Below are positions 24,482-60,917 of a stretch of DNA of 63,323 nt, one piece after another; position 1 is the first letter of the stretch, and each line of letters opens with the position of its first letter. This stretch comes from a virus. The notes beneath the pieces were generated by a model that was given only the letters and a program-made list of their open reading frames with translations, was not told where the DNA came from and ran no database searches. The position numbers were made by a program, and so were the translations under genes. The DNA lies in IMG/VR virus record IMGVR_UViG_3300047546_002519, positions 1 to 63,323 of that record. One strand, given 5' to 3'.

Positions 24482-25192
24482 TTAATCCCACAAACCACGG
24501 TAGTATTTACCAAATAGACGAAAACCATTATCCATGCGATTATATACTTTGTTCATACCATCATAATCACATTGGTATGTGTGGTTAGGACCATCTACCA
24601 TAGTTGATAATTTAGGATTGTCTTCACAAGGAACAAACTTCATATCAATCACACCCGAACGATATGCTTCTTCCCATGAATCGTCAAGCAGATGTTCAAA
24701 GGCAAAAATCATTTCATTCAACACCCATTCCCACCGACGATGTGTGATATCCCATGATTCTTTTTGAAATTGCTCATCATCTTCAAACTTCAATCTGAAT
24801 TGTGATGAGCCATCATCATAACCAGTTATACGAAGTTCTTCTGGCACGTCTTCAATGTCAACCATAGGTGAACCGTGTTTTGTTGCTTGAAGTTGTTTGA
24901 GCATTGGCAAAATAATATTTGCCAATGTGTGATCCATTGACCATGTATCGTACTTGTCAATGCGTACTTTGATTTTGCGTTCCTTGTGACTGTCAATCCA
25001 ATTAAAGAAATCATTCAACCAAGATGATTTGCCGTTTTTATCTTCAGCCAGCCAAGTGCCGAAATCATGAACCCATTCTGGATGCCGTTTGAATCCGTAC
25101 TCATCAGGTACTTTTTTTACCCAAAAGCAAAGTAGTTCTGCTAATTGGTAAGGACCAAACCAATTTGTATAAGGACCAATATAAACACGCAT
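24482..25192 (-). CDS. Conserved T4-like phage protein, unknown
   Basis: I choose the ATG at 25192 (236 aa), because the family start RVYIGPYTNWFGPYQ begins there; the longer frame runs into the tmRNA coding piece. The protein is rich in Trp and acidic residues (HRRWEWVLNEMIFAFEHLLD). It resembles a widely spread T4-like phage protein of unknown role. The tmRNA locus lies directly upstream. Confidence 0.75.
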   Translation of the reverse strand: MRVYIGPYTNWFGPYQLAELLCFWVKKVPDEYGFKRHPEWVHDFGTWLAEDKNGKSSWLNDFFNWIDSHKERKIKVRIDKYDTWSMDHTLANIILPMLKQLQATKHGSPMVDIEDVPEELRITGYDDGSSQFRLKFEDDEQFQKESWDITHRRWEWVLNEMIFAFEHLLDDSWEEAYRSGVIDMKFVPCEDNPKLSTMVDGPNHTYQCDYDGMNKVYNRMDNGFRLFGKYYRGLWD

Positions 25193-25254
25193 GATGTATC
25201 TCTGAATATGATGTGGACTGTTTTGGTAATAAGGTACAGCCCACTTAAACCCCA

Positions 25255-25382
25255 GCAAGGCTATTTAAGCAGCCATTGCGTAGTAATTATCGTTTGCAGA
25301 TAATTTATTTGCTTGATTTACAGTCATCGCCTACTGTGTTGCCTTCTCCACTATCTCACCCTGTCGAAACCAGGTCACCCCC
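25255..25382 (-). ncRNA. ssrA: tmRNA coding piece (permuted ssrA, 5' tRNA-like end and tag)
   Basis: On the minus strand the RNA begins GGGGGTGACCTGGTTTCGAC, the tmRNA 5' hallmark. The tag frame reads ANKLSANDNYYAMAA then TAA (25312-25265); ANDNYYAMAA alone, starting at the second GCA, would match the usual 10-residue tag length. The first 7 bases pair with CACCTCC of the acceptor piece, which lies upstream, not downstream. CAGGGTG (25363-25357) can also pair with CATTCTG (25487-25481) of the acceptor piece as helix P2. The 3' boundary is approximate. Confidence 0.92.
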
Positions 25383-25449
25383 ATCAAAAGCACACAATCC
25401 CCACTAGAGCCCTCAGAGGTTTCTTTCATCTAGGACAACTATGTGCTTT

Positions 25450-25540
25450 TGGTGGAGGTGGGCGGAATTGAACCGCCGTCCAGAATGCCTTCACTTCGAA
25501 GGAGTTACAACAATTCTTTCTTGTAGCACACAACGTGCCA
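25450..25540 (-). ncRNA. ssrA: tmRNA acceptor piece (permuted ssrA, T arm and CCA end)
   Basis: The minus strand reads GGACGGCGGTTCAATTCCGC then CCACCTCCACCA: a 5 bp T stem with loop TTCAATT, an acceptor strand CACCTCC, discriminator A and an encoded CCA at 25452-25450. Because this 3' end lies before the 5' piece in the direction of transcription, the gene is circularly permuted and should give a two-piece tmRNA. The linker holds AAAAGCACA and TGTGCTTTT, which pair and bring both ends together for processing. The 5' boundary is a guess and overlaps a small CDS. Confidence 0.9.
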
Positions 25541-25670
25541 CGATGTAATCTCTATAACGCACGATTGTTGATGCCACTTCATGGCATTCCTCATATGTAT
25601 CAAAAGTTTTCCATTGTGATTCTGTAACTGAACCTGAAATGATAACCGTTACAATGAGTGCGTATAGCAT
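25491..25670 (-). CDS. Small secreted or membrane protein, 59 aa
   Basis: The ORF starts MLYALIVTVIISGSVTESQW and continues with TYEECHEVASTIVRYRDYIV and a second Cys, the usual layout of small phage proteins with a signal anchor and a disulfide-type C...C pair. The start overlaps the preceding stop (TAATG at 25672-25668), a coupled arrangement common here. The last codons run into the tmRNA acceptor piece. Function unknown. Confidence 0.62.
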   Translation of the reverse strand: MLYALIVTVIISGSVTESQWKTFDTYEECHEVASTIVRYRDYIVARCVLQERIVVTPSK

Positions 25671-43349: not shown

Positions 43350-43360
43350 CCGCTTTTTTT
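43334..43360 (+). terminator. Bidirectional rho-independent terminator
   Basis: AGCGGCT and AGCCGCT pair around loop TGGT (43337-43354), with A run before and T run after, so it can terminate the plus-strand membrane protein operon and the minus-strand rubrerythrin gene, which ends at 43359. Confidence 0.88.
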
Positions 43361-43967
43361 ATTGCTCAGACAAATGTTTGTCTAGTGCTTTCTGATAACG
43401 ATTCGCATGTGATCGTTCTGCCTTGGCTAAAGTTTCAAACCAATCAGCCACTTCATCAAAGCCTTCTTCACGTGCAGTCTTTGCCATACCTGGATACATG
43501 TCAGAGTATTCGTGTGTTTCACCAGCGATAGCAGCCTCTAGCATTTGTCGTGCTGTTTTTGCTGGCATACTTGTACCAGGTTCACCCGCACCACCTTCAA
43601 TCAGATATTCCATATGTCCGTGTGCGTGGCCTGTTTCACCTTCAGCAGTGGAACGAAACAGTGCAGCAAGGTCGTTTTCACCCGCAATGTCGCATTGATT
43701 TGCGAAATACAGATAACGACGATTTGCCATTGATTCACCTGCAAAAGCCTCTTTCAAGCACTCAGCAGTTTTTGTACCTTTCAAACTCATAACATCTCCT
43801 ATAGAATGATTAATTTTTTTCAGTGACCACGTTCCATCTTTATTATCAACCCAGTCAATTGAATCACCTTCTTTCCAACCGAGTTCAGCAATGGCTTCAT
43901 CAGGTAATTCTATAAACAGATTACCATCTTCATGTTCTTTTACATCTAGAGTCCAAGATTTATTCAT
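43359..43967 (-). CDS. AbrB-like domain fused to rubrerythrin
   Basis: Residues about 4-52 ([20 protein letters not shown] then [15 protein letters not shown]) match the SpoVT/AbrB swapped-hairpin pattern used by transcription regulators and antitoxins. From residue 60 the protein is a rubrerythrin-type four-helix diiron domain with all ligands: Glu78, Glu111/His114, Glu150/Glu153 and Glu184/His187. The C-terminal rubredoxin of classical rubrerythrin is absent. A peroxide-reducing role is known for the family; the AbrB fusion suggests a regulator or sensor, which is inference. Confidence 0.85.
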
Positions 43968-43978
43968 GGTATGTAATT

Positions 43979-44052
43979 TGGAGCGGGATGTCAGAATCGA
44001 ACTGACAACGTAAGATTGGAAATCTCAAGTTTTACCATTAAACTAATCCCGC
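43979..44052 (-). tRNA. tRNA-Gly(UCC)
   Basis: Cloverleaf with acceptor GCGGGAT/ATCCCGC, anticodon loop TTTCCAA, T loop TTCGATT and encoded CCA. It lies alone between the rubrerythrin gene and small genes, 1.2 kb from the main tRNA array. Confidence 0.93.
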
Positions 44053-45254: not shown

Positions 45255-45341
45255 TGGCGGAAGATAGAGGAATCGAACCTCTGCACCGTTTTCACAGTGA
45301 CGGATTAGCAATCCGCTGCATTACCTCTCTGCCAATCTTCC
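45255..45341 (-). tRNA. tRNA-Ser(GCU)
   Basis: Acceptor GGAAGAT/ATCTTCC, anticodon loop TTGCTAA, long variable arm, T loop TTCGATT, discriminator G and encoded CCA. Confidence 0.93.
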
Positions 45342-45359
45342 TAAATTACTGAAATAGGG

Positions 45360-45429
45360 TGCTTCAGTTTGGATTCGAACCTTGTCCTAGTGTTGTCCAT
45401 CTGTACGTCCCACCGTACTGACCGAAGCA
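45360..45429 (-). tRNA. tRNA-like element without clear anticodon arm
   Basis: The ends pair as a 7 bp acceptor (TGCTTCG/TGAAGCA), GTAC/GTAC forms a D-arm-like stem with loop GGTGGGAC, and GGTTCGAATCC keeps the T loop. The T stem has only two pairs and no anticodon stem is visible; CCA is not encoded. It occupies a tRNA-sized slot (70 bases) in the array. It could be a decayed tRNA or a tRNA-like RNA. Confidence 0.45.
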
Positions 45430-45431
45430 TT

Positions 45432-45521
45432 TGGTGGAAGCGGTGAGATTCGAACTCACGGACCCATTACTGAATCGCTAGTTTTCAAGACTAGTGCCTT
45501 AAACCACTCGGCCACACTTCC
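45432..45521 (-). tRNA. tRNA-Ser(UGA)
   Basis: Acceptor GGAAGTG/CGCTTCC, anticodon stem CTAGT/ACTAG with loop CTTGAAA, long variable arm, encoded CCA. Confidence 0.94.
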
Positions 45522-45526
45522 AAAAC

Positions 45527-45604
45527 TGGAGCAACGGGTCAGATTCGAACTGACGGCTTTAGGGATTTGCAGTCCCTTGCATTGGACCACTCTGCCACCG
45601 TTGC
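45527..45604 (-). tRNA. tRNA-Cys(GCA)
   Basis: Acceptor GCAACGG/CCGTTGC, anticodon loop CTGCAAA, T loop TTCGAAT, discriminator T, encoded CCA. Confidence 0.93.
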
Positions 45605-45609
45605 ATTAT

Positions 45610-45685
45610 TGGTGCATCGTGATGGATTCGAACCACCGACAACCTGCTTGTAAGGCAGGGATTCTACCACTGAACTAACGATGCA
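45610..45685 (-). tRNA. tRNA-Val(UAC)
   Basis: Acceptor TGCATCG/CGATGCA, anticodon stem CCTGC/GCAGG with loop CTTACAA, encoded CCA. Confidence 0.94.
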
Positions 45686-45710
45686 CATCGCCTCACACGC
45701 TTACTTATAT

Positions 45711-45785
45711 TGGTAGTAGTGGTAAGATTCGAACTTACACCTGACACCGTATGAAGGTGGCGCACTACCATTATGCTACACTACC
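45711..45785 (-). tRNA. tRNA-Met(CAU)
   Basis: Acceptor GGTAGTG/CACTACT, anticodon loop TTCATAC, T arm GTAAG/CTTAC, encoded CCA. CAU could also be an Ile2 tRNA after lysidine modification. Confidence 0.88.
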
Positions 45786-45789
45786 ATTC

Positions 45790-45863
45790 TGGTTGTCCTG
45801 ACAAGAATCGAACTTGTGTTATACGATTATCAGTCGTAGGTTCTACCATTGAACTACAGGACA
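45790..45863 (-). tRNA. tRNA-Ile(GAU)
   Basis: Acceptor TGTCCTG/CAGGACA, anticodon stem with ACGA/TCGT and loop CTGATAA, T loop TTCGATT, encoded CCA. Confidence 0.93.
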
Positions 45864-45864
45864 A

Positions 45865-45940
45865 TGGTGGTGCCTGTTAGAATCGAACTAACTTCATCGG
45901 TTCTTCAGACCGCTGCAATGACCACATTTGCTAAAGCACC
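45865..45940 (-). tRNA. tRNA-Phe(GAA)
   Basis: Acceptor GGTGCTT/AGGCACC, anticodon loop CTGAAGA, T arm TTAG/CTAA, encoded CCA; starts 1 base after the Ile tRNA. Confidence 0.92.
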
Positions 45941-45947
45941 TTACTGC

Positions 45948-46022
45948 TGGGGTGTCTAACGGGTACCGACCCCGTACCTACTCTTTCACAGAGAGTAATG
46001 CTACCACTACACTATAGACACC
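45948..46022 (-). tRNA. tRNA-His(GUG)
   Basis: Anticodon stem ACTCT/AGAGT with loop CTGTGAA. The extra 5' G pairs with discriminator C, the His identity pair. The T loop is GTCGGTA rather than the usual TTCRANT, which is unusual. CCA is encoded. Confidence 0.9.
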
Positions 46023-46029
46023 ATTGTTC

Positions 46030-46124
46030 TGGTAGTAGACCTAGGATTTGAACCTAGCCGTTGCAGCCCATCTGACCACTCTCCAGAGTTTATAAGTCTC
46101 CGCCGCACACCAGTGCTGTCTACC
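46030..46124 (-). tRNA. Irregular class II tRNA-like gene, isotype uncertain
   Basis: Acceptor GGTAGAC/GTCTACT, strong T arm CTAGG-TTCAAAT-CCTAG, discriminator A and encoded CCA are normal. The D region has a small loop (GCAC-TGGT-GTGC). The putative anticodon stem GGAGA/ACTCT has an A-A mismatch and loop CTTATAA (would read UAU), followed by a 27-base variable region without clear pairing. Leucine is the only amino acid missing from the set, so a diverged Leu tRNA is possible. Confidence 0.6.
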
Positions 46125-46126
46125 AT

Positions 46127-46200
46127 TGGCCTCGGTGGAGAGAATCGAACTCCCACATACGGTTTTGGAGACCGTGGTTCTGCCATTAAACTACACCGAG
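46127..46200 (-). tRNA. tRNA-Trp(CCA)
   Basis: Acceptor CTCGGTG/CACCGAG, anticodon stem ACGGT/ACCGT with loop CTCCAAA, discriminator G, encoded CCA. Confidence 0.94.
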
Positions 46201-46204
46201 ATAC

Positions 46205-46279
46205 TGGAGCGGGTAGTCAGATTCGAACTGACGACATTTTCCTTGGCAAGGAAACATTCTACCCCTGAATTATACCCGC
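46205..46279 (-). tRNA. tRNA-Gly(GCC)
   Basis: Acceptor GCGGGTA/TACCCGC, anticodon stem TTTCC/GGAAA with loop TTGCCAA, encoded CCA. Its first base is the last base of the YkuK-like gene stop codon. Confidence 0.94.
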
Positions 46280-46746
46280 TACGCTACTAAACTTTTAAAA
46301 CGATCTGCCGCATAACTAGCAGCAAATGCTTTTGGTTTTATCAATGGTATCACATTACATGTGCCACGTATATAACCAATCGCTTCATTTACCACACATG
46401 AACTACCGTGCATCTCACTTGGGTTGATATCCAAATGAATCTGTATATCATGTGGTATTACTTCATACAATTTCAAATATAAATCTGCTACTTTATAAAC
46501 TTCATTCATCAAACGAAAACGTGGTCGACTTTTCTTTTGTTCGAAATCACGTTCACGCTGTACAGCACCAAATATCTTACAACCATGACGACCATCGATA
46601 TGAATTACAACAGCAAGAATGTAATCAGCATACCATTCACCGTCAATCTGAAATCGTTCAGAATCAGCACCGATATACACTTTTGTGTCGGGGCCACATG
46701 TTTCAAGAAATGCGGCCACTTCGTTCACATCAATTTCTTTTTTCAC
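46279..46746 (-). CDS. YkuK/DUF458-like RNase H-fold protein
   Basis: The 155 aa protein contains VYIGADSERFQIDGEWYADY (an RNase H-like D-x-E core), the I-H-L-D-I-N segment (QIHLDINPSEMHGSSCVVNE), GYIRGTC and IKPKAFAASYAADRF. This is the layout of the YkuK/DUF458 family, a predicted RNase H-like nuclease. It lies inside the tRNA array and ends 1 base into tRNA-Gly(GCC), so a role in RNA processing is attractive but only inferred. Confidence 0.78.
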   Translation of the reverse strand: MKKEIDVNEVAAFLETCGPDTKVYIGADSERFQIDGEWYADYILAVVIHIDGRHGCKIFGAVQRERDFEQKKSRPRFRLMNEVYKVADLYLKLYEVIPHDIQIHLDINPSEMHGSSCVVNEAIGYIRGTCNVIPLIKPKAFAASYAADRFKSLVA

Positions 46747-46760
46747 GTTTCACCTATAAA

Positions 46761-46836
46761 TGGTAGCGGGTGTTGGATTCGAACCAACGATCTTCAGAGT
46801 ATGAGCCTAACGGGATGACCACTTCCCTAACCCGCA
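46761..46836 (-). tRNA. tRNA-Met(CAU), initiator-like
   Basis: Anticodon loop CTCATAC; the first acceptor position is unpaired (T1 opposite T72), as in initiator tRNAs, and GGCTCATAC...GAAGATCG resembles the initiator anticodon arm, but the three G-C pairs typical of initiators are not intact. Encoded CCA. Confidence 0.85.
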
Positions 46837-46843
46837 ATAAAAC

Positions 46844-46920
46844 TGGTGCCGATTGCAGGACTTGAACCCACCACCTGACGCTTACAAGGCGCCTGCTCTA
46901 CCAGATGAGCTAAATCGGCA
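46844..46920 (-). tRNA. tRNA-Thr(UGU)
   Basis: Acceptor TGCCGAT/ATCGGCA, anticodon loop CTTGTAA, T loop TTCAAGT, encoded CCA. Confidence 0.94.
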
Positions 46921-46929
46921 ATAAAACTT

Positions 46930-47004
46930 TGGTGGAGAATAGCAGATTCGAACTGCTGACTGTAGAATGCAAATCTACTGCGTTCCCAATTACGCCAATT
47001 CCCC
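46930..47004 (-). tRNA. tRNA-Ala(UGC)
   Basis: Acceptor GGGGAAT/ATTCTCC, anticodon stem GTAGA/TCTAC with loop TTTGCAT, encoded CCA. Confidence 0.93.
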
Positions 47005-47006
47005 AT

Positions 47007-47081
47007 TGGCCGGTCCTGAGAGAATCGAACTCCCACTTTGTGGTCCGTAGCCACACGTAATATCCATTTTACTAAAGACCG
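47007..47081 (-). tRNA. tRNA-Arg(ACG)
   Basis: Acceptor CGGTCTT/AGGACCG, anticodon stem TGTGG/CCACA with loop CTACGGA, discriminator G, encoded CCA. A34 would need inosine modification by the host. Confidence 0.92.
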
Positions 47082-47088
47082 AAAAACT

Positions 47089-47171
47089 TGGTGGGTTGAG
47101 TAGGGATCGAACCTACTTGCCGAAGCCACGGATTTACAGTCCGCTGCCCTACCATTAGAGCATTCAACCCA
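47089..47171 (-). tRNA. tRNA-Tyr(GUA)
   Basis: Acceptor TGGGTTG/CAACCCA, anticodon stem GCGGA/TCCGT with loop CTGTAAA, class II variable arm, encoded CCA. Confidence 0.93.
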
Positions 47172-47178
47172 ATAACAC

Positions 47179-47252
47179 TGGCAGGGGATGTAAGAATCGA
47201 ACTTACGACAACGGAATCAAAATCCGTGGTTATACCATTTAACTAATCCCCA
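47179..47252 (-). tRNA. tRNA-Gln(UUG)
   Basis: Acceptor TGGGGAT/ATCCCCT, anticodon stem ACGGA/TCCGT with loop TTTTGAT, discriminator G, encoded CCA. Confidence 0.93.
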
Positions 47253-47255
47253 ACA

Positions 47256-47379
47256 ATATTAGAATTGCAGTCTGCACTATTTGCTATGCTCAACGGAATG
47301 ACCGGCCGGCTTTACCGTTTGTGTACATAGTTACGCAGGCATGATCAAGCCCATGGCTTACAGACCGCAAATCTAATAT
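47256..47379 (-). ncRNA. Structured RNA 1 between tRNA-Asn and tRNA-Gln
   Basis: The ends ATATTAGA (47379-47372) and TCTAATAT (47263-47256) pair, as do TTGCGGTCTG (47370-47361) and CAGACTGCAA (47274-47265), with one mismatch: a 19-position closing stem. The only non-Watson-Crick pair is a G-U on the minus strand but A-C on the plus strand, so the RNA is on the minus strand. Inside are AAGCC-ATG-GGCTT and a CTATG/CATAG plus CAAACGG/CCGTTG arm. The 5' end is the CCA of tRNA-Asn; the 3' end lies 3 bases before tRNA-Gln. No known family is recognised. Confidence 0.72.
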
Positions 47380-47453
47380 GGCTGCTCAGGTAGGGATCGA
47401 ACCTACGACAAACGCATTAACAGTGCGCTGATCTACCACTGATCTACTGAGCA
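47379..47453 (-). tRNA. tRNA-Asn(GUU)
   Basis: Acceptor TGCTCAG/CTGAGCA, anticodon stem GCGCA/TGCGT with loop CTGTTAA, discriminator G, encoded CCA whose last base begins structured RNA 1. Confidence 0.93.
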
Positions 47454-47460
47454 ACAAACT

Positions 47461-47538
47461 TGGCGACATGTACGGGATTCGAACCCGTGGTCTCCGCCGT
47501 GACAGGGCGGCGCATTAGGCCAACTATGCTAACATGCC
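47461..47538 (-). tRNA. tRNA-Asp(GUC)
   Basis: Acceptor GGCATGT/ACATGTC, anticodon stem CCGCC/GGCGG with loop CTGTCAC, discriminator G, encoded CCA. Its 5' base abuts structured RNA 2. Confidence 0.93.
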
Positions 47539-47613
47539 ATATTGAAGCACACTGGGACTCCATTGGAGTTAATTATCTTTGGAACAACCCTCAGAACCAA
47601 TGTGCTTCAATAT
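47539..47613 (-). ncRNA. Structured RNA 2 abutting tRNA-Asp
   Basis: ATATTGAAGCACA (47613-47601) pairs with TGTGCTTCAATAT (47551-47539), extended by a G-U pair and CCA/TGG, a 17 bp closing stem. The G-U is A-C on the plus strand, so the RNA is minus-strand. The interior has ACTCC-AAT-GGAGT. The 3' end directly touches the 5' base of tRNA-Asp; the 5' end is 1 base from structured RNA 3. About 75 nt. Confidence 0.72.
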
Positions 47614-47614
47614 A

Positions 47615-47759
47615 CCATATATGAAAATGTATTTCCAGTTTTGTGTCTAACTAACTGTACCAATCTTGCTATCATACACGTTGCCCAGAATTCTATCTGG
47701 GTCGCAGACTGCACGGTTGGTGACCGTCACTTTGCACAAAAATACACTTTCATATATGG
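47615..47759 (-). ncRNA. Structured RNA 3 between tRNA-Lys and structured RNA 2
   Basis: A 20-position stem joins CCATATATGAAA-G-TGTATTT (47759-47740) to AAATACA-T-TTTCATATATGG (47634-47615); the odd pair is G-U only on the minus strand. Inside are ACGGT/ACCGT and a CCCAGA/TCTGGG hairpin (47684-47701). The first three bases are the CCA of tRNA-Lys, so the free RNA probably begins at 47756 after tRNA maturation. Confidence 0.72.
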
Positions 47760-47833
47760 TAGGTGCGGTGAGACTCGAACTCACAACTTATCGGTTAAAA
47801 GCCGATTACTCTAGCCAGTTGAGTTACGCACCC
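47757..47833 (-). tRNA. tRNA-Lys(UUU)
   Basis: Acceptor GGGTGCG/CGCACCT, anticodon stem ATCGG/CCGAT with loop CTTTTAA, encoded CCA that overlaps the stem of structured RNA 3. Confidence 0.94.
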
Positions 47834-47843
47834 ATAATATAAT

Positions 47844-47918
47844 TGGTACACCGTACCAGAATCGAACTGGTCTTTGCGCCTTGAAAGGGCGCCGTCCTAA
47901 CCGATAGACGAACGGTGC
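47844..47918 (-). tRNA. tRNA-Glu(UUC)
   Basis: Acceptor GCACCGT/ACGGTGT, anticodon stem GCGCC/GGCGC with loop CTTTCAA, T loop TTCGATT, encoded CCA. Confidence 0.94.
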
Positions 47919-47959
47919 ATCTCACAAACTTTTAAAAGAACAATCAATCGACAAACATC

Positions 47960-47988
47960 ATTATAATCAAACTTCAAAGCTTTGTCAA
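47960..47988 (-). promoter_or_regulatory. Consensus sigma70 promoter of the tRNA array
   Basis: TTGACA (47988-47983) and TATAAT (47965-47960) with a 17 bp spacer, 42 bases before tRNA-Glu. It can drive all tRNAs and structured RNAs from Glu down to Ser(GCU). Confidence 0.86.
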
Positions 47989-48036
47989 CTACTTTTTTTA
48001 CTGTTGTTTTTTTACAACATTACTATTTTGATAACT

Positions 48037-48113
48037 TGGTCTGAGTGGAGAGGTTCGAACTCCCGACCTCCTGCTCCCAAAGCAGGCATTCTACCAGACT
48101 GAACTACACTCAG
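48037..48113 (-). tRNA. tRNA-Pro(UGG)
   Basis: Acceptor CTGAGTG/CACTCAG, anticodon stem CCTGC/GCAGG with loop TTTGGGA, encoded CCA. It lies upstream of the array promoter and just after the terminator of the preceding operon. The gap to the promoter has a TGTTGT/ACAACA repeat. Confidence 0.94.
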
Positions 48114-52512: not shown

Positions 52513-52712
52513 TGGTTACTCTGCGGCTCGGGGGTTGGGTGCAGTTTCAGCTCCAAAAAAAATTTTGCTGCGACTTTCTGTACAAAAACGACTTTTCGTT
52601 CGATAAGGTTGCTTCGAAATAGCATGTTCCTTCAAGGGATCCCTTTGATTCTATACCGCTTATCGATTTCGCACCGCACACTATAATACACTGCCCCGCA
52701 CTGCACTATAGA
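52513..52712. other. Gene-free 200-base stretch
   Basis: I see no gene here on either strand. It holds a perfect 12 bp palindrome AAGGGATCCCTT (around 52637-52648), an AACGA/TCGTT hairpin near 52589 and a plus-strand CTATAATAC resembling a -10 box near 52681. Its base composition is richer in GC than nearby genes. Confidence 0.5.
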
Positions 52713-52859
52713 CTATGCACCATCAGGGCGCCCGTATTGTTCCAGTACATTAGCCACTGTAATCGCAGCAAGTCCCAGCCGATCAGCAATTGCAATTACA
52801 CTGAGCCCATCATCACTTAGCTCTAATATTTGTATCACTAGATTTTTATAATAGCCCAC
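52713..52859 (-). CDS. Small helix-turn-helix-like protein, GTG start, 48 aa
   Basis: The frame VGYYKNLVIQILELSDDGLS continues VIAIADRLGLAAITVANVLE, the pattern of a homeodomain/resolvase-like helix-turn-helix. AGGA lies 5 bases before the GTG, which sits inside the end of the upstream gene. It is similar in layout to the 44 aa ORF at 53298-53432. Confidence 0.55.
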   Translation of the reverse strand: MGYYKNLVIQILELSDDGLSVIAIADRLGLAAITVANVLEQYGRPDGA

Positions 52860-53034
52860 TCTGGTCCTCATCATCATAAATTATTGGTTTAAACTTACGT
52901 GCATTGGAATTCTCACCATACACTTTTATGTCACCATTATTTCCACCAGCAGCCACAATGCGTGGCGCCATGTAAATTTCAAACTCTGCTACAGCTGCTG
53001 CTATGTCAGCTTCAGTAAATTGTGCTTTTTTCAT
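52846..53034 (-). CDS. KAQFT-type small protein, copy 1, 62 aa
   Basis: MKKAQFTEADIAAAVAEFEI is followed by a basic/polar tail. The first 15 residues match copy 2 at 53120-53296 (MKAQFTDADVAEAV), so the two genes are paralogues with different C-termini. A strong hairpin lies 20 bases upstream. Function unknown. Confidence 0.65.
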   Translation of the reverse strand: MKKAQFTEADIAAAVAEFEIYMAPRIVAAGGNNGDIKVYGENSNARKFKPIIYDDEDQSGLL

Positions 53035-53053
53035 TTAGTCTTATTTAAAAATT

Positions 53054-53106
53054 GTGGTATCGCAGGATCACACACAGCTGCCGAGCAGTAGGGGGTGCGA
53101 TACCAC
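53054..53106 (-). other. Large hairpin between the two KAQFT genes
   Basis: GTGGTATCGCA (53054-53064) and TGCGATACCAC (53096-53106) are a perfect 11 bp inverted repeat. The enclosed part holds a CTGC-TCG-GCAG mini-hairpin, and on the minus strand AATTTTT follows. It may be a terminator or attenuator ahead of copy 1, or a small structured RNA. Confidence 0.65.
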
Positions 53107-53119
53107 ATGCAGAGATAAT

Positions 53120-53296
53120 CTATACAAAAGTCTTTCGGGGATAGCCGGCAGCAATACCACCAGAGCCACGCACAAAGCCCTTACTAGACTTTACACGACA
53201 TTGTGGTTTTTTTGCTTTACGGGGTTTGAGTACAGTAGCACCTAGACCCTTTACAGCCTCTGCTACATCAGCATCAGTAAATTGTGCTTTCATCAT
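53120..53296 (-). CDS. KAQFT-type small protein, copy 2, 58 aa
   Basis: The start ATGATG at 53296 follows the stop of the helix-turn-helix ORF by 1 base. MMKAQFTDADVAEAVKGLGA then a basic tail LKPRKAKKPQCRVKSSKGFV. The longer frame to 53383 overlaps that ORF and is rejected. The basic tail suggests nucleic-acid binding. Confidence 0.65.
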   Translation of the reverse strand: MMKAQFTDADVAEAVKGLGATVLKPRKAKKPQCRVKSSKGFVRGSGGIAAGYPRKTFV

Positions 53297-53297
53297 T

Positions 53298-53432
53298 TTA
53301 TAATTTCCAAGCCTTAATAGCAGCTGCGATATCAGCAGCAGGAATTCTGAGCAGTGCAGCAATACGCCACACAGGATAGCCAAGGTACTTCAAGGTGGCT
53401 ATCTCATTAATCGTTTCACGGCGGATAATCAT
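53298..53432 (-). CDS. Small helix-turn-helix-like protein, 44 aa
   Basis: MIIRRETINEIATLKYLGYP then VWRIAALLRIPAADIAAAIK looks like a helix-turn-helix (I-A-x-L-L-x-I-P-x-x-x-I-x-x-A). The ATG overlaps the upstream stop (ATGA). It pairs with KAQFT copy 2, as the ORF at 52713 pairs with copy 1. Confidence 0.58.
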   Translation of the reverse strand: MIIRRETINEIATLKYLGYPVWRIAALLRIPAADIAAAIKAWKL

Positions 53433-53593
53433 AATTTCATTCCATTTGCAAGATAAGCAATATAACCAGGGTTCTTGTTCAACACCACCACAGGCTCAAT
53501 ACCTAACACCACACCGGTCTTTACAAATGCTTTTTCAGCATACGCAACAGCAGCCTTCAGCGTCTTGAATTTTCTTCCATCACACAGGTACAT
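53429..53593 (-). CDS. Small phage protein, 54 aa
   Basis: AAGGAGCAAATT precedes the ATG at 53593, and a consensus promoter lies 31 bases upstream, so MYLCDGRKFKTLKAAVAYAE is the likely start, not the frame from 53677. Function unknown. Confidence 0.7.
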   Translation of the reverse strand: MYLCDGRKFKTLKAAVAYAEKAFVKTGVVLGIEPVVVLNKNPGYIAYLANGMKL

Positions 53594-53623
53594 AATTTGC
53601 TCCTTCATCATCACCACAAAATC

Positions 53624-53652
53624 ATTATACAGCCAGTGCGAAACATTGTCAA
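53624..53652 (-). promoter_or_regulatory. Consensus sigma70 promoter before the 53593 gene
   Basis: TTGACA (53652-53647), 17 bp spacer, TATAAT (53629-53624), right after the stop of the GSKKAML gene. Confidence 0.86.
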
Positions 53653-53657
53653 GTGCT

Positions 53658-53819
53658 TTATTCGGCAAACTTAGCACCCACAGGGCGACTGGTAATTGCT
53701 AAAGTGTAAACACCCCGATTTGCTTTGATTATACGCAACATTGCTTTTTTGGAACCCTTTGCAGCAACTAGATTTGTTGCTTTTTCGACAATGGCGTAAT
53801 AGTTCGACGGCTTTATCAT
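53658..53819 (-). CDS. GSKKAML-type small protein, copy 1, 53 aa
   Basis: MIKPSNYYAIVEKATNLVAA then KGSKKAMLRIIKANRGVYTL and AITSRPVGAKFAE. It is a clear paralogue of the protein at 54089-54250 (about 60% identical by eye). The basic G-S-K-K-A-M-L-R-I-I-K core suggests a small binding domain. It is too short for a default ORF cutoff. Confidence 0.75.
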   Translation of the reverse strand: MIKPSNYYAIVEKATNLVAAKGSKKAMLRIIKANRGVYTLAITSRPVGAKFAE

Positions 53820-53912
53820 TTTGCTATCTTCCTGTCACGTATCGCATCCCACGCAATATAGGCCATTGCAAAAGGTGCAATTATCAAAAAGAGAATCACG
53901 GCGTTATCCATT
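53816..53912 (-). pseudogene. Possible frameshifted small membrane ORF
   Basis: From ATG 53912 the frame MDNAVILFLII ends early, but a +1 step in a TTT run continues as APFAMAYIAWDAIRDRKIAK and ends exactly at an ATGA overlap with the next gene. One base removed would give a normal membrane peptide. It may be an indel in nature or in the assembly. Confidence 0.4.
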
Positions 53913-54087
53913 ATGCAACTTTCATTAGTTTGTAGCCATCGACTACATCGAACAGATTAGCCCGCTGCCAGTCCCACAAATCAGTTACTTTATTGAAAAC
54001 AGGACCAAACGGGTACGCAGCCTTGTCATTAATCAAATAAACCATCGTTTGCCAGCCGCCAGGAACGCTTATACAAGTAATTTGCAT
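53911..54087 (-). CDS. Small phage protein, 58 aa
   Basis: GGAGAATAAA precedes the ATG at 54087 (MQITCISVPGGWQTMVYLIN). Contains YPFGPVFNKVTDLWDWQRAN. Unknown function; between the two GSKKAML copies. Confidence 0.68.
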   Translation of the reverse strand: MQITCISVPGGWQTMVYLINDKAAYPFGPVFNKVTDLWDWQRANLFDVVDGYKLMKVA

Positions 54088-54088
54088 T

Positions 54089-54250
54089 TTATTCTCCAAA
54101 CACCGCACCGATCGGGCGGCTAGTAATTGCTAATTGAAAAACACCAGGATTTGCTTTGATTATTCGCAACATTGCTTTTTTGCTACCCTTTGCAGTTATC
54201 AGGCCTGTCGCCTTACAGTAAACAGAGTAGTAGGTAGAAGCCGTTATCAT
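54089..54250 (-). CDS. GSKKAML-type small protein, copy 2, 53 aa
   Basis: MITASTYYSVYCKATGLITA then KGSKKAMLRIIKANPGVFQL and AITSRPIGAVFGE. Paralogue of copy 1; a longer frame upstream is replaced by a separate 28 aa ORF with a strong ribosome site. Confidence 0.75.
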   Translation of the reverse strand: MITASTYYSVYCKATGLITAKGSKKAMLRIIKANPGVFQLAITSRPIGAVFGE

Positions 54251-54254
54251 TTGA

Positions 54255-54341
54255 TCAACCCAAAGCAGGAGCAGCACCGGGAGCAGCAGCAAGGGCGCCC
54301 CAAACCCCAATCAAACCAGCCAGTATCAAAATCACAATCAT
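54255..54341 (-). CDS. 28 aa hydrophobic peptide
   Basis: MIVILILAGLIGVWGALAAA then PGAAPALG; AAAGGAG lies 6 bases before the ATG and a promoter is 36 bases upstream. The strong ribosome site supports expression of this membrane peptide. Function unknown. Confidence 0.55.
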   Translation of the reverse strand: MIVILILAGLIGVWGALAAAPGAAPALG

Positions 54342-54376: not shown

Positions 54377-54405
54377 AGTATACTGCGGACCGGTAGGATT
54401 GTCAA
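54377..54405 (-). promoter_or_regulatory. Sigma70-type promoter before the 54341 ORF
   Basis: TTGACA (54405-54400), 17 bp spacer, TATACT (54382-54377). Confidence 0.84.
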
Positions 54406-54410
54406 GGGCT

Positions 54411-60842: not shown

Positions 60843-60917
60843 TGGTACGGCTAGCAGGAATCGAACCCACATTCGTTCTTTAGAAGAGAACTGTATTATC
60901 CATTATACGATAGCCGC
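60843..60917 (-). tRNA. tRNA-Arg(UCU)
   Basis: Acceptor GCGGCTA/TAGCCGT, anticodon stem GTTCT/AGAAC with loop CTTCTAA, encoded CCA. It sits alone, 12.7 kb from the array, directly after a small gene. Confidence 0.93.

Follow-up and report, generated by a model that had tools for sequence, protein, structure and literature searches.

Ten very small genes behind two predicted host-type promoters in a T4-like phage genome: a fixed HTH-KAQ core beside a shuffled cassette slot

T4-type phages are known for small early genes that are reshuffled behind host-like promoters, and the shuffling has been ascribed to promoter-stem-loop (PeSL) cassettes and to recombination taking place at regulatory signals that are conserved (Arbiol 2010 and Comeau 2014, as cited in PMC4503421 and PMC4177764). 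Among small HTH proteins, T7 Gp5.7 (7 kDa, wHTH) acts on the phage genome as a repressor of host-polymerase promoters (PMC5569994), and Aca proteins are HTH autorepressors, typically of 60-65 aa (PMC9410906).

The DNA analysed here, called the window throughout, is the 63,323-base IMG/VR virus record IMGVR_UViG_3300047546_002519; gene names were coined in this analysis. Its gp32 homologue shares 57-66% identity with cyanophage proteins over most of its length, and its baseplate gp6 homologue is nearest to those of Methylophilales phage Melnitz and pelagimyophages (~42% over 70%). Judged by these two homologues, a T4-like genome surrounds the cluster described below. The window also carries on the minus strand a permuted two-piece tmRNA of betaproteobacterial type (25192-25561, Rfam RF01850, 158 bits, coding tag ANDNYYAMAA), which hints at a betaproteobacterial host; a similar two-piece tmRNA was reported for the marine myophage Melnitz (PMC9004378). 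On the same strand, 21 tRNA genes are densely arrayed at 45255-48113 (ARAGORN; Rfam), and a rubrerythrin-like ORF with an apparent AbrB-like N-terminus, judged by eye, adjoins a tRNA-Gly (43359-43967). Further tRNA genes are those for Gly at 43979 and Arg at 60843.

The cluster runs from 54341 down to 52713, exactly the span given in a preliminary description: TM28 starts at 54341, HTHB stops at 52713 and all named ORFs lie on the minus strand. Its ten genes encode 28-62 aa each, adjacent ones overlap or almost touch, and their order is TM28, GSK1, MQI, TM31, GSK2, CDG, HTHA, KAQ1, KAQ2, HTHB. Two promoters split them into a P1 operon (TM28, GSK1, MQI, TM31, GSK2) and a P2 operon ((CDG)-HTHA-KAQ1-KAQ2-HTHB). 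In the direction of the genes, the features are:

54377..54406, minus strand: P1, predicted sigma-70-type early promoter, CTTGACA-N17-TATACT, 11/12 consensus, upstream of TM28
54255..54341, minus strand: TM28, hydrophobic micropeptide of 28 aa that bounds the cassette slot on the left (17 ORFs, the window's among them)
54089..54250, minus strand: GSK1, 53 aa, the type that follows TM28, 96% identical to the copy in contig 046804 (L004)
53911..54087, minus strand: MQI, 58 aa, GGWQT..FGPVFN..DLWDWQ (16 loci in viral contigs)
53816..53911, minus strand: TM31, 31-aa hydrophobic micropeptide with a PFAMAY motif (13 ORFs including the window's)
53658..53819, minus strand: GSK2, 53 aa, the type that precedes P2, 98% identical to the copy in contig 049893 (L003)
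53624..53653, minus strand: P2, predicted sigma-70-type early promoter, CTTGACA-N17-TATAAT, perfect 12/12 consensus, right border of the cassette slot
53429..53593, minus strand: CDG, 54 aa, heads the P2 operon where present (14 ORFs, counting the window's)
53298..53432, minus strand: HTHA, 44 aa, probable minimal helix-turn-helix, adjoining KAQ1, in all contigs that cover the core
53120..53296, minus strand: KAQ1, 58 aa, shared N-terminal module and basic Gly-rich tail SKGFVKGs.GfA.GYP.K
53053..53107, minus strand: RNA hairpin with a 12-bp stem, MFE -22.2 kcal/mol, z -2.2
52846..53034, minus strand: KAQ2, 62 aa, shared N-terminal module and acidic tail (NGDv.vYGEN)
52713..52859, minus strand: HTHB, 48 aa, GTG start, HTH_23-type minimal HTH, overlapping the end of KAQ2
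52555..52655, minus strand: CE, conserved non-coding element of ~100 nt with near-invariant block AAAGGAACATGCTATTTCRAAGCAACCTTATCGA and terminal CAAAATTTTTTTT, ending in a T run

Like the hyperplastic early regions of T4-type phages, the cluster has host-like early promoters followed by small, uncharacterised early genes, content that is shuffled among close relatives, and crossovers at regulatory and translation-initiation sequences. Its T4-like surroundings, host-like promoters and shuffled content place it with those early cassettes. Unlike PeSL cassettes, however, it showed no stem-loop abutting its promoters, P2 lying directly after the upstream stop, and unlike both these cassettes and T4-type early regions it keeps a fixed HTH-KAQ-KAQ core, with only one flank shuffled. 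Against the collections searched, CE and the fixed HTH-KAQ core appear to be new, as do the protein families.

Relatives were gathered from viral contigs (IMG/VR) by single-protein and alignment scans and a pattern scan, and the families were then mapped in order by iterated HMM search. Every cluster family reappears in syntenic contigs, as the preliminary description had proposed to check. Pooled pN/pS (Nei-Gojobori, relatives against the window, pooled per gene) is 0.20 for HTHB, 0.26 for CDG, 0.28 for HTHA, 0.32 for GSK1, 0.35 for KAQ2, 0.36 for MQI, 0.38 for KAQ1, 0.45 for TM31, 0.46 for GSK2 and 0.72 for TM28, whose JC ratio against 046804 is 0.21. Nine of the ten genes are under clear purifying selection; TM28 is less constrained, yet conserved. 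With syntenic recurrence and, TM28 aside, ratios of 0.20-0.46, the worry that these ORFs might lack conservation or coding constraint is laid to rest. Five proteins (GSK, KAQ2, MQI, KAQ1 and CDG) had zero matches in 50,697 sequenced phage records. The profile searches that had been suggested for each family (PHROGs, Pfam, PADLOC, PDB) assigned an HTH to HTHB and yielded nothing assignable for the other cluster proteins. Structure prediction, also suggested, produced AlphaFold models of GSK and KAQ1 (mean pLDDT 64 and 58), both too weak to hint at function.

By their letters P1 and P2, which the preliminary description does not mention, are near-consensus sigma-70 promoters such as host RNA polymerase recognises in its unmodified state. 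They are two of the 10 matches to CTTGACA-N16-18-TATANT in the window (0.03 expected), all of which lie on the minus strand. Across 51 non-redundant promoters of the lineage, the further conserved letters are a C ahead of TTGACA, an A following it and a G following the -10 box. Position is conserved as well: in relatives the distance from P1 down to TM28 is 60-64 nt, and that from P2 down to CDG, or to HTHA in contigs without CDG, is 57-61 nt. These conserved, near-consensus promoters bear out an early, host-promoter-driven setting for the cluster. P2 begins a few bases after the preceding stop codon, and neither promoter had a terminator-like site in a scan. In contig L051 (8046-8216; 8155) P2 falls inside the frame that codes for the small gene ahead of it.

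What lies between TM28 and P2 differs among contigs: GSK-MQI-TM31-GSK in the window, GSK-MQI-TM31 in 046804, MQI-TM31-GSK in 049893 and 005581, MQI-TM31 in 032050, TM31-GSK in 044825, TM31-GSK-MQI in 016464 and other small genes elsewhere. Both borders are marked. TM28 keeps a conserved end V-T-T-L-G plus the junction GGGTTRATAAAATG irrespective of the next gene, most genes inserted after TM28 join at this same junction or a close form of it, and TTGCCGAATAA or a degenerate form stands directly before P2, with or without a GSK gene ending there. The TM31 stop overlaps the GSK2 start. These arrangements show the P1 operon to be a cassette slot, with TM28 on its left and P2 on its right, in which recombination adds, removes and reorders GSK, MQI, TM31 and other small genes. 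MQI (GGWQT..FGP..W.WQ) ranges more widely than the other cluster families: it also occurs in other large viral contigs (L022, of 354,959 bases, L025 and L026) without an HTH-KAQ core in the flanking sequence covered, and no member was found in bacterial genomes. Another small slot family (MFTDKELAAAYQNYKGPVAV..KPRPNEKTFRNNKYSVFNQGR) occurs in L007, L008, L029, L034, L047 and L051 and has a weakly KAQ-like N-terminus (E 0.004-0.006). A family in relatives whose N-terminus reads FTxxEL (MFTDKELAAAY...) was considered as a third carrier of the KAQ module; its match to the KAQ N-terminus is only weak, at E 0.004-0.006, and we do not claim it.

The unit HTHA-KAQ1-KAQ2, usually joined by HTHB and CDG, is the conserved content of the P2 operon, and the conserved non-coding element follows it. 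HTHA, KAQ1 and KAQ2 stand in the same order in every contig that covers the region and are then followed by HTHB in all except L051 and L056, which indicates that the second HTH is dispensable; in the window the CDG stop overlaps the HTHA start. Since the KAQ pair, with HTHA before it, is present in all covering contigs, it is old. The observation that two KAQFT-type proteins share an N-terminus and differ in their tails holds: 11 of the first 15 residues are identical (47 nt of DNA at 85%) and a profile comparison aligned exactly 18 columns (E 1.3e-5). When the KAQ2 profile was run against the whole window, it found besides itself only the KAQ1 N-terminus (E 0.0012), and the module AxF[TSN]xx[DE]VxxA is retained in both families across relatives, so that the two proteins are best described as homologous over ~18 N-terminal residues only. 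The low-confidence KAQ1 model has a helix at residues 8-15 only, within the shared segment. Beyond it, the KAQ1 tail is strikingly conserved, and the charges differ: in the window KAQ1 has 13 K/R and 3 D/E, KAQ2 7 K/R and 10 D/E. KAQ1 overlaps or abuts KAQ2 in the majority of genomes; an 85-nt insert, present in the window and the 032050 contigs alone and bearing the hairpin listed above, uncouples KAQ2 from KAQ1, and with it no Shine-Dalgarno sequence is visible for KAQ2. Contig 042453 has an unrelated 53-nt gap.

An HTH-like ORF beside each KAQ gene had also been described. For HTHB, next to KAQ2, this stands: it scores 26.6 bits against PF13384 (HTH_23), above the Pfam gathering cut-off of 24.6, and eight of 13 HTHB members match HTH_23 at E <= 0.01. 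Its profile matches in the PDB include the stand-alone minimal HTH domains 1res (gamma-delta resolvase DNA-binding domain, 43 aa) and 2x48 (55 aa), to which HTHB is similar in size as well; the resolvase domain is part of a recombinase, whereas HTHB has no catalytic domain. HTHA, next to KAQ1, falls under every Pfam HTH cut-off, with weak matches to HTH_38, HTH_7 and sigma-70 region 4 (best 0.010-0.013). It aligns with HTHB by profile (E 6e-6, 39 columns) and is probably also an HTH. This similarity could be explained by general HTH resemblance as well as by duplication.

Downstream of HTHB, or of KAQ2, lies CE. Among 30 sources scanned with a covariance model, it was found once in each of the 17 that bear the module (the window and 16 contigs), the sole additional match being no better than chance (E 0.77). 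Neither Rfam nor the phage records contain a match to it. A match in L067, inside a coding frame, was put down to chance. We rejected CE as a coding start (MLFQS..), all codon positions being conserved and a one-base insertion breaking the frame in two contigs. As to a structured RNA, an 8-pair hairpin shows no covariation, which is not demonstrable in a block that hardly varies, and the 158-nt region is not stabler than its shuffles (z +0.82). CE may act as a small RNA, as a regulatory site at the 3′ end or as a DNA site.

We infer from these observations that in the cluster a T4-like myophage of an uncultured lineage carries two immediate-early mini-operons side by side, whose minimal HTH proteins would tune early transcription, and we put the probability of this reading at roughly 0.6. 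Unmodified host polymerase would transcribe both operons immediately on phage entry. HTHA and HTHB would then bind DNA and damp or retune either the phage's own strong early promoters, as feedback, or host transcription. Their action is modelled here on T7 Gp5.7, likewise a very small HTH-like phage protein, for which the corresponding role is repression of host-polymerase promoters on the phage genome. Gp5.7 is a wHTH protein, whereas HTHB is HTH_23/resolvase-like by profile; the likeness concerns size and proposed role, and no sequence relation is claimed. As KAQ1 and KAQ2 share ~18 residues, it can be proposed that a common N-terminal helix docks the same partner and that the basic tail of KAQ1 and the acidic tail of KAQ2 act as effectors of opposite charge. 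The genes of the P1 cassette might be interchangeable, host-specific takeover factors. The host-takeover regulator role first suggested for the cluster proteins is plausible in these terms. A bolder version, in which the P2 unit is a self-contained module, with an opposite-charge docking-helix pair framed by minimal HTHs and closed by CE, a near-invariant RNA or operator element through which the HTH or KAQ proteins would act, seems to us unlikely; if true, it would be a previously undescribed way of controlling host transcription or translation.

Other readings start from the size, the repeats and the composition of the cluster. Most of the ORFs are indeed shorter than common gene-calling lengths, as the preliminary description remarked, and lack database matches, so that they could be taken for spurious, non-functional small frames. 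Synteny, purifying selection, start-stop overlaps and conserved promoters contradict this, refuting it for nine of ten genes and leaving TM28 as the weakest case; as an account of most of the cluster it is next to impossible. A recent tandem duplication in this phage as the source of the GSK and KAQ pairs would fit the two direct repeats inside 1.6 kb, one of 165 nt (74%, GSK) and one of 47 nt (85%, KAQ). GSK1 and GSK2 are, as noticed from the start, paralogues that flank other small genes (70% protein identity, protein search E 7.5e-20). The KAQ pair, though, is present in every relative covering the region. In a codon tree the GSK1 and GSK2 clades are split with 96% support, every copy following TM28 groups with GSK1, and each of the window's copies is nearer to those of other contigs than to its partner. 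Contig 032050, 80-95% identical through much of the region, lacks both copies at near-precise sites. Recent duplication is thus very improbable. What survives of the local duplication with shuffling proposed earlier is one N-terminal module on two tails and a varying GSK number, copies per contig being 0, 1 or 2 when the suggested copy-number check was made.

The GSK pair may have been brought together by recombination, in two acquisitions, or be an old pair with losses; both fit. The latter, in which an ancestral GSK occupied both slots and was differentially lost, is compatible with the early mini-operon reading, and we hold it tentatively, at somewhat short of even odds. Two clades follow two slots, and TTGCCGAATAA, the last codons of GSK2, stays before P2 in genomes that have no GSK there, as a deletion remnant would. 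In distant genomes, however, a degenerate form of the block is also present before P2 with other genes ending on it, so that it may instead be a promoter-associated element. An old pair would moreover demand at least one recent exchange: between the window and 049893 pS is 0.05 for GSK2 against about 0.25-0.7 for MQI, TM31, CDG, HTHA and KAQ1, and DNA identity climbs to 95-99% across GSK2, which points to recent exchange of this gene. For the function of the cluster, the alternative is an anti-defence operon of the Acr-Aca kind, its small genes being defence inhibitors and HTHA and HTHB Aca-type autorepressors. An operon that combines small genes, among them HTH genes, with a strong early promoter does resemble acr-aca operons (PMC9410906). 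On the other side, the HTH proteins have 44-48 aa against the typical 60-65 aa of Aca, and HTHA opens the core and HTHB closes it, whereas aca genes come after acr. No conserved inverted repeat of the kind expected in an acr-aca core promoter is apparent in the listed promoter sequences, P1 and P2 included, by inspection rather than by a dedicated search. No known acr gene is present, and PADLOC, whose library holds defence proteins and not Acrs, gave no match. We regard an Acr-Aca operon as possible, at rather long odds, and as less supported than a role in early regulation.

With early mini-operons as the preferred reading, the fixed core beside a swapping slot offers a natural test of general versus host-specific early phage functions. 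For functional screens the cluster offers new families of small proteins together with one conserved non-coding element. Annotation pipelines would overlook most of its genes, although these are conserved and stand behind the region's strongest host-type promoters, where takeover factors are expected.
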